From NCBI GenBank assembly GCA_021323795.1, contig JAJPKH010000183.1, forward strand, positions 1 through 43,193: DNA of 43,193 bases, given 5' to 3'. The stretch is from Acidiferrobacteraceae bacterium (GTDB lineage Bacteria; Pseudomonadota; Gammaproteobacteria; Acidiferrobacterales; Sulfurifustaceae). Position numbers and translations under genes: made by a program. Under the pieces are notes generated by a model, which saw nothing but the letters and a program-made list of their open reading frames with translations, did not search any database and was not told the DNA's origin. Below are positions 22,652 through 26,126 of the stretch, in pieces (the first letter of the stretch is position 1; every line of letters starts with the position of its first letter).

Positions 22652-24226
<1,575 letters not shown>

Positions 24227-24290: not shown

Positions 24291-24306
24291 TGGCACGCCG
24301 GTTGCT
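24291..24306 (+). promoter_or_regulatory. Sigma-54 (RpoN) promoter, full consensus match
   Basis: TGGCACG-CCGG-TTGCT = TGGCACG-N4-TTGCW; GG-N10-GC spacing exact; 81 nt upstream of the ATG at 24387. Confidence 0.8.
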
Positions 24307-24336
24307 TTATCAGTAGCAACCGGCCGAAGGGCCGGT
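24297..24336 (+). promoter_or_regulatory. Two overlapping, mutually exclusive hairpins at the promoter/5' leader
   Basis: GCCGGTTGCT-TTATCAGT-AGCAACCGGC (24297-24324) and ACCGGCC-GAAG-GGCCGGT (24319-24336), sharing ACCGGC. Confidence 0.7.
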
Positions 24337-24386
24337 CGACATCCGCCCTGACTGGGCTGGAACCGCCCGACCGCAAGGGGAAGCAA

Positions 24387-24944
24387 ATGGAACAGGAAGG
24401 TTTTGCGCCGATTGCCTACGACCAGCCACGATGGTGGTCGCTGTTCCTTGCCGCCGTGTTGCTCCTGGCCGCCGCGCTTTGCGCCACCGCCAAGGCGGAC
24501 GAAATGCATCTGCTCATCAACGGAAAGGCGATTCACCTCAACGAAAAGCCCGGCGTCCACTACAACGAGAGCAACTGGGGCGCGGGATTTCAGTACGACA
24601 TGGCGGACAAGCGCAGCGACTGGGTGCCGTTCGTCGCGGCTTCCGGGTTTCTCGATTCGAACCGCAACGCGTCGTATTACGCCGGCGGCGGCACGCTGCG
24701 CCGCTACTACTTCAATCTCGGCGATACCCGCATGCACGCGGACGTCGGCGGTATCGCGTTCCTCATGACGCGCAAAGGTTTCCGGAACGACCATCCTTTC
24801 TTCGGAGTGCTGCCGGCGTTCTCGCTGGGCGGCGACAAGATCTCCGTCAACATGACGTTCATACCGAAAGTCGATCCCAAGGCGGTACCGCTGTTCTTCT
24901 TCCAGTTGAAGATCAGTTTCGATCTGTTCCAGTCGAGCCGCTAG
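24387..24944 (+). CDS. Secreted, probable outer-membrane beta-barrel protein of unknown function
   Basis: N-terminal hydrophobic segment WWSLFLAAVLLLAAALCATAKA; alternating aromatic/polar strands (NWGAGFQYDM, SYYAGGGTLRRYYFNL, ISVNMTFIPKV), C-terminal FFFQLKISFDLFQSSR. Confidence 0.65.
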   Translation: MEQEGFAPIAYDQPRWWSLFLAAVLLLAAALCATAKADEMHLLINGKAIHLNEKPGVHYNESNWGAGFQYDMADKRSDWVPFVAASGFLDSNRNASYYAGGGTLRRYYFNLGDTRMHADVGGIAFLMTRKGFRNDHPFFGVLPAFSLGGDKISVNMTFIPKVDPKAVPLFFFQLKISFDLFQSSR

Positions 24945-25049: not shown

Positions 25050-26126
25050 CTACCGCAACAAGGCGACGCTCTTGATCTGGGCGTACACCGGCATTCCGTT
25101 CTTGAGGCCGAGGTCCGAGGCGGACTTGCGCGTGATGCGGGCGAGCAAGATGGTGTCGCCGACGCGCAAGCGCACGACCACGCGCCCCGGCGCGTCCTCG
25201 GCGATCTCCTCGATCTGCGCCGCCAGCACGTTCTGGGCGCTGGTACGTTCCGGCCGGACCAGTGCCACGCTGACGTCCCGTGCATGGACGCGAAAGCGGG
25301 CTTTCGCGCCCATCGGAGCGGTGTCGCCGATGGCCGCGAGTCGTCCGCCGTTGAATTCGAGATAGGTCAATTGAAAAGCGTCATCGCGCTCCACCACCGT
25401 CGCGTCGATGACCGCGCTCGCGGTATCGCTGCGCGCGAGCGGCAAGTCGAGGCGCGTGAGCATCGCTCCGAGCGCGCCGTGGGCGCGCACGGCGCCGTTC
25501 TCCATCAGCACCATGTAGTCGCACAGCCGCGCGACTTCCTCGGCGGCGTGACTCACGTATAGGGCCGGTATCGACAGCTCCCGGTGCAGTCGCTCGAGGT
25601 ACGGCACGATATCCGCCTTGGCGGCGTCATCGAGTCCGGAGAGCGGCTCATCGAGCAGCAGCAGGCGCGGGCTCGACAACAGCGCGCGCGCGATCGCGAC
25701 GCGCTGGCGCTCGCCGCCCGAGAGGTGCTGCGATCCGCGCGGGAGCAGCGCTTTCAAGCCCAGCCACTCGACCGCCTGCCCGAACTCGATGCGGCGCTCT
25801 TTGGCCGGCGTCCGGTTCAGGCCGTACTCGAGGTTGTCCCGGACGGAAAGATGCGCAAACAAGCTCGCTTCCTGGAACACGTAGCCGATCGCGCGACGAT
25901 GCGCGGGCACGAAGTGCCGGCGCGATTCGTCCTGCCAGCATTCCCCGTCGATACAGACTTTCCCGCGCGGCGCGCGCACCAGCCCGGCGACGCAACGCAG
26001 CACGCTCGTTTTTCCGGAACCGGAAGGGCCAAAGAGCGCGGTGATGCCGCGGCTCGGCGCGGTGAATACGGCATCGAGCGCGAAGCCGCCGAGCGCCGTC
26101 TGCAGGCTCACCTCGATCTTGCTCAC
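25050..26126 (-). CDS. modC: Molybdate ABC transporter ATP-binding protein
   Basis: Walker [15 protein letters not shown], signature [16 protein letters not shown], Walker [14 protein letters not shown]-terminal TOBE domain. Confidence 0.95.

Follow-up and report, generated by a model that had tools for sequence, protein, structure and literature searches.

A predicted sigma-54 promoter upstream of a divergent pagP gene and a c-di-GMP riboswitch in the leaders of its relatives

The locus and the sigma-54 site

The window, i.e., the whole stretch of 43,193 nucleotides analysed here, is contig JAJPKH010000183.1 of the Acidiferrobacteraceae bacterium assembly GCA_021323795.1. The features that concern us lie in its central part; the two neighbouring genes are taken to be prfC-like and modC-like as recognised from their sequences alone.

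22652-24226, + strand: open reading frame of the upstream neighbour, presumably prfC-like (peptide chain release factor 3), ending 64 nt before the promoter
24291-24306, + strand: sigma-54 (RpoN) -24/-12 promoter element TGGCACG-N4-TTGCT, from motif match and conservation
24317, + strand: predicted transcription start (+1, within 2 nt either way), placed by sigma-54 geometry relative to the -12 C at 24305 and in agreement with a hairpin at about +3
24319-24336, + strand: predicted 5'-terminal stem-loop ACCGGCC-GAAG-GGCCGGT, from folding, at +3 to +20 of the predicted transcript
24376-24381, + strand: Shine-Dalgarno-like AGGGGA, 5 nt before the ATG, read from the sequence
24387-24944, + strand: pagP-family gene for 185 aa with a signal peptide and an 8-stranded barrel, from Pfam PF07017, PDB entries 1mm4, 1thq and 3gp6, invariant columns and a structural model
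25050-26126, - strand: open reading frame of a presumably modC-like ABC ATPase, convergent, downstream of pagP

The + strand at 24291-24306 reads TGGCACGCCGGTTGCT and agrees in full with TGGCACG-N4-TTGCW; its GG occupies 24292-24293 and its GC 24304-24305, with N10 between them. It is the sole site without a mismatch in the window, the runners-up having two mismatches. The initial annotation had described a full-consensus sigma-54 promoter that is intergenic and points at the gene starting at 24387; the match is exact, and the position agrees, as the site lies in the gap that follows the prfC-like gene (end at 24226) and is directed toward the ATG at 24387, 80 nt downstream. The genome also has the machinery that such a promoter calls for, with rpoN (E=3.3e-69, over the curated cut-off) and eight strong Sigma54_activat genes.

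The exact match by itself is weak evidence, because the 3.35-Mb assembly contains four exact matches and a reversed control pattern gives two. This near-control count would suit a chance match of the motif, with pagP expressed from some promoter not seen here or through transcription that continues from prfC, and a simple scan found no terminator 3' of the prfC-like gene. However, a promoter scan of the region around 24291-24306 gave no sigma-70-like promoter, and terminator-like hairpins with T runs are seen by eye between the upstream gene and the promoter in relatives. The strongest argument comes from the upstream regions of homologues. A search of 57 genomes of the same order found 13 homologues, that of the own genome included, and a search of named genomes found 25 loci, including those from Sulfuricaulis, Candidatus Muproteobacteria, Ghiorsea, other zetaproteobacteria and further gammaproteobacteria. 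Once loci shared by both searches are allowed for, the scoring covers 29 upstream regions, some of which come from closely related loci and do not represent independent events. The motif occurs with at most one mismatch in 14 of them (300 permuted motifs: mean 0.04, maximum 1) and with at most two mismatches in 24, whatever the gene upstream (300 permuted motifs: mean 0.6, maximum 5). Conservation upstream of orthologues had been named beforehand as the refuting test of the initial annotation, and the claim came through it. The loci bearing the site span Acidiferrobacterales-like families to zetaproteobacteria, and the motif is kept while the flanks and the stretch after the site vary. Five homologues (L016, L053, L059, L061 and L069) lack a good sigma-54 site in their upstream regions.

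The intergenic position and orientation of the site, the lack of a sigma-70-like promoter in the scan and above all the conservation put 24291-24306 well above chance. The explanation by a chance match is hardly credible, and on the computed evidence we take the predicted sigma-54 promoter to be genuine.

The product as a divergent PagP

The product of 24387-24944 had been described as an uncharacterised, barrel-like orphan envelope protein. The barrel-like envelope protein stands, whereas the terms uncharacterised and orphan do not, as Pfam, a PDB search, the catalytic residues and the fold all identify a PagP. The 185-aa sequence matches PF07017 (PagP) with 49.2 bits (E=4.9e-13; cut-off 24), and the PDB sequence search matched the solved E. 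coli PagP (E=3e-5). The score against NF008271, the model of the E. coli-type PagP equivalog, is 46.2 bits, far under its cut-off of 155; therefore we class the protein as a divergent member of the PagP family and not as an E. coli-type equivalog.

In E. coli PagP, D76 and S77 are catalytic and G88 is the glycine of the hydrocarbon ruler. The PDB sequence alignment places D90 and S91 on D76 and S77, and G102 on G88. H50, which lies outside the local alignment and was assigned by reading, is likely the counterpart of H33. H50, D90, S91 and G102 are all invariant in 11 homologues. An AlphaFold2 model (mean pLDDT 82) shows eight strands, and its top PDB matches, 3gp6 and 1thq, are both PagP, with about 22% identity to the E. 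coli protein in the fold alignment. Strand 1 of the model starts at residue 39, right behind the signal sequence, and the amphipathic helix of the E. coli type is absent before it.

The low equivalog score, the low identity and the missing helix would also fit a PagP relative with another activity, e.g., with a different acyl donor or acceptor or with a structural role. We regard this as rather unlikely, as the family as a whole retains the His, the Asp-Ser pair and the ruler glycine. Judged from sequence and model, the protein is a predicted lipid A acyltransferase, a divergent PagP. Since the modC-like gene downstream is convergent, pagP is taken as a single-gene unit. In three gammaproteobacterial MAGs (L066, L067 and L070) a cspA thermoregulator (RF01766) directly follows pagP, which hints at a link to cold.

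The mRNA leader in the window and in relatives

The start predicted from sigma-54 geometry, about 24317, coincides with the range 24316-24318 given in the initial annotation. A transcript from there would carry the stem-loop 24319-24336 almost at its 5' end. Most of the riboswitch-bearing relatives described below have a hairpin of other sequence equally far from the promoter, and this constant position lends independent support to the start site. Shuffled-sequence tests of 13 leaders, which are not independent of each other, gave a combined p of about 1.6e-8. In seven closely related, gap-free riboswitch-bearing leaders, the 8-pair stem is 100% paired and three pairs are changed on both sides (A-U/G-C/C-G); such compensatory changes are also seen in an alignment of six leaders. 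In the seven-leader alignment the first base of L011 was entered as T and not G, a position outside the stem that leaves the counts unaffected.

Because the inverted repeat is perfect and lies right at the start site, it could also be a DNA operator, the dyad of a repressor or an activator. An operator would keep its sequence, whereas here the arms differ wholly between lineages, with pairing kept and compensated in the seven leaders. We therefore read 24319-24336 as an RNA stem-loop and consider an operator unlikely. The stem-loop may stabilise the mRNA from its 5' end.

A c-di-GMP-I riboswitch (RF01051) lies between the sigma-54 site and pagP in 8 of 12 order-level homologues. The leaders with the element are those of L007, L009, L011-L014, L017 and L018, together with L054, at 60-73 bits against a gathering threshold of 35. 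In most of them the aptamer starts 45-46 nt past the sigma-54 site, i.e., about 35 nt past the predicted start. L054 comes from a MAG labelled betaproteobacterial (VBCA01000054), where RF01051 scores 72.7 bits in the pagP leader. This locus has the full unit of promoter, hairpin, riboswitch and pagP, and its protein is nested among Sulfuricaulis-type sequences, which would fit horizontal transfer or wrong binning. Single-sequence folds of the riboswitch leaders vary between relatives and give no single clear expression platform; a possible pairing of CCTCC with the Shine-Dalgarno sequence is seen by eye. The ligand of these elements is presumably c-di-GMP, with cGAMP as the alternative.

The leader in the window has no RF01051 match by cmscan, either at the gathering threshold or at E<=10, and the own genome assembly (89.8% complete) is without a c-di-GMP-I riboswitch, so that the c-di-GMP part is not directly applicable to the pagP copy of the window. 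Two leaders from a riboswitch-rich genus (g10), L008 and L010, also lack the element. On the PagP tree, the presence of the riboswitch needs five changes, at least three of them forced by well-supported branches, and the PagP of the window is placed (97/94) with a clade in which some members have the riboswitch and others do not. Because of this placement, loss and not gain of the riboswitch in the lineage of the window is a fair reading of the tree, though not proved. The hairpin of the window resembles the first stem of GEMM and was considered as a remnant of the riboswitch; this reading was dropped because no match was found at E<=10 and because its position fits the separate 5' hairpin of the relatives. 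Other Rfam families gave no more than chance-level matches in this leader.

Among 369 gammaproteobacterial genomes, 5 showed the joint pattern of promoter and riboswitch, two of these hits being known pagP loci; the pattern is thus not general. The initial annotation supposed a specific signal that switches the gene on; judging by the leaders of the relatives, this putative signal would include c-di-GMP.

Riboswitches of this class also occur before other genes of the order. Six c-di-GMP-I elements (L020, L023, L033, L041, L042 and L046) have sigma-54-like sites 13-60 nt upstream; that of L046 precedes a PilZ-like open reading frame and that of L041 a cytochrome-like one. In many genomes of the order, c-di-GMP-I riboswitches (L026, L029, L030, L031, L036, L043, L044 and L045) are directly followed by members of a recurrent lipoprotein family of about 480 aa ('IAYVKRP...GNPTD...GGDLY').

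Proposed regulation and comparison with known systems

Among the eight activators of the genome, one passes the NCBI NtrC cut-offs and one is nearest to GlrR, yet below the GlrR cut-off. Another is FleQ-like: its N-terminal FleQ domain exceeds the Pfam cut-off, and it contains the tetrapeptide LFRS, which in Pseudomonas FleQ belongs to the c-di-GMP pocket. Scans with the NtrC, FleQ and GlrR consensus sequences found no conserved activator site upstream of pagP; the NtrC and GlrR scans were no better than permutations, and the FleQ scan was slightly above them with scattered positions.

RpoN binding without activation occurs in other bacteria. With no enhancer site identified by these scans, RpoN at 24291-24306 might act as a roadblock or give basal output only, the main transcription being due to another sigma factor. 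Against this, the hairpin and, in relatives, the riboswitch stand at fixed short distances past the -12 box, as is expected if transcription starts there. We hold such a role of RpoN to be very unlikely.

The reading that we consider highly probable is an RpoN promoter that drives a single-gene unit with a divergent PagP, to which the leaders of relatives add a c-di-GMP riboswitch. An activated enhancer-binding protein would open the sigma-54 holoenzyme at 24291-24306, with transcription in the cell presumably dependent on RpoN. Transcription of pagP would proceed from about 24317, and the first structure in the mRNA, at about +3 to +20, would be a stem-loop that protects it. The outer-membrane PagP would then move an acyl chain, probably palmitate, from a phospholipid to lipid A. 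Among close relatives, pagP output would depend on c-di-GMP as well as on the activator, owing to the riboswitch about 35 nt past the start. The lineage of the window would have retained promoter and hairpin in a leader without the riboswitch, the ancestral leader having also read c-di-GMP. This arrangement suggests that the surface change brought about by PagP may be tied to a sessile state with high c-di-GMP.

Further sigma-54 sites of the genome may bear on a wider circuit. On another contig, C167, an exact site precedes a 7TM-PAS-GGDEF gene (L003/L089) by about 130 nt, and the sole close paralogue of this gene, on C141 (L090), has TGGCATGCAAGTTGCT upstream of its reading frame. Both genes belong to the own genome (G000), and their sites have 0 and 1 mismatch; the reading frames stay open for 805 and 835 aa, which suggests a further domain. 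A search of the genomes of the family with the N-terminal half of this sigma-54-driven GGDEF gene found the two copies in the own genome only. Since the other genomes of the family did not yield these genes, the idea that genes of c-di-GMP turnover share an RpoN regulon with pagP is a hint only. A more extended proposal, which we put forward tentatively and regard as doubtful, would place pagP in an RpoN/c-di-GMP regulon in which a FleQ-type activator senses c-di-GMP at the promoter and a riboswitch senses it a second time in the leader; the lineage of the window would have lost the RNA sensor while its promoter arm remained, and the two paralogous 7TM-PAS-GGDEF genes with their own sigma-54 sites would feed the loop. 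The genome has two other exact sites, one about 70 nt upstream of a gene for a secreted EF-hand protein (L004, G000:C306, 1501-1516) and one overlapping the 5' region of a gene for an ANTAR (NasT-like) response regulator (L001, G000:C93, 753-768).

Lipid A acylation sets how permeable and how stress-tolerant the outer membrane is, and what is known of pagP control comes mainly from pathogens with PhoPQ, Rcs or Bvg. Here pagP appears to be wired to RpoN in environmental bacteria that are uncultured or little studied (Sulfuricaulis, Sulfurifustis-like and Ghiorsea relatives), and in many such relatives it appears to be wired directly to c-di-GMP by a riboswitch. This would be a direct and testable molecular link between the messenger of sessile life, c-di-GMP, and outer-membrane remodelling. 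Each of the components is known. In the literature searched, which mostly did not extend to subscription journals, no paper was found to connect a c-di-GMP riboswitch with pagP, the one that names all three being a broad review, and no paper had 'c-di-GMP-I' together with 'sigma-54'. The combination of RpoN, riboswitch and pagP is apparently unreported, a provisional statement given this coverage of journals.

The protein resembles PagP of E. coli and Salmonella (PF07017; 1thq, 3gp6 and 1mm4) in its predicted 8-stranded outer-membrane barrel, its His and Asp-Ser residues and its ruler glycine, and the YNExxWGxGF and ...MTYIP... segments are conserved. It differs from them in the points already given, i.e., identity, equivalog score and N-terminal helix. 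The promoter is like known -24/-12 promoters in its full consensus and its GG-N10-GC spacing, and the genome encodes both RpoN and activators; it is unusual for sigma-54 to have a lipid A acyltransferase among its targets. The riboswitch of the nine relatives is of the known c-di-GMP-I (GEMM) class RF01051, from which the window stands apart in both leader and assembly.

Enteric pagP is under PhoPQ. RcsB and SlyA also take part in its control (PMC6106083). Enteric pagP is not known to be under a strong sigma-54 promoter, whereas pagP of the window has a sigma-54 site. The closest precedent that we found for RpoN at pagP is the dcuC/pagP spacer of E. coli K-12, which is in a list of sites bound in vitro by RpoN holoenzyme and is also bound by NtrC (PMC8743547). 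In E. coli biofilms, pagP is induced through RcsB (PMC6106083). Palmitoylation of lipid A in these biofilms resembles our proposal in that pagP is raised in sessile cells; the E. coli route runs through RcsB and osmolarity, whereas the one proposed here would run through RpoN and, in relatives, the c-di-GMP riboswitch.
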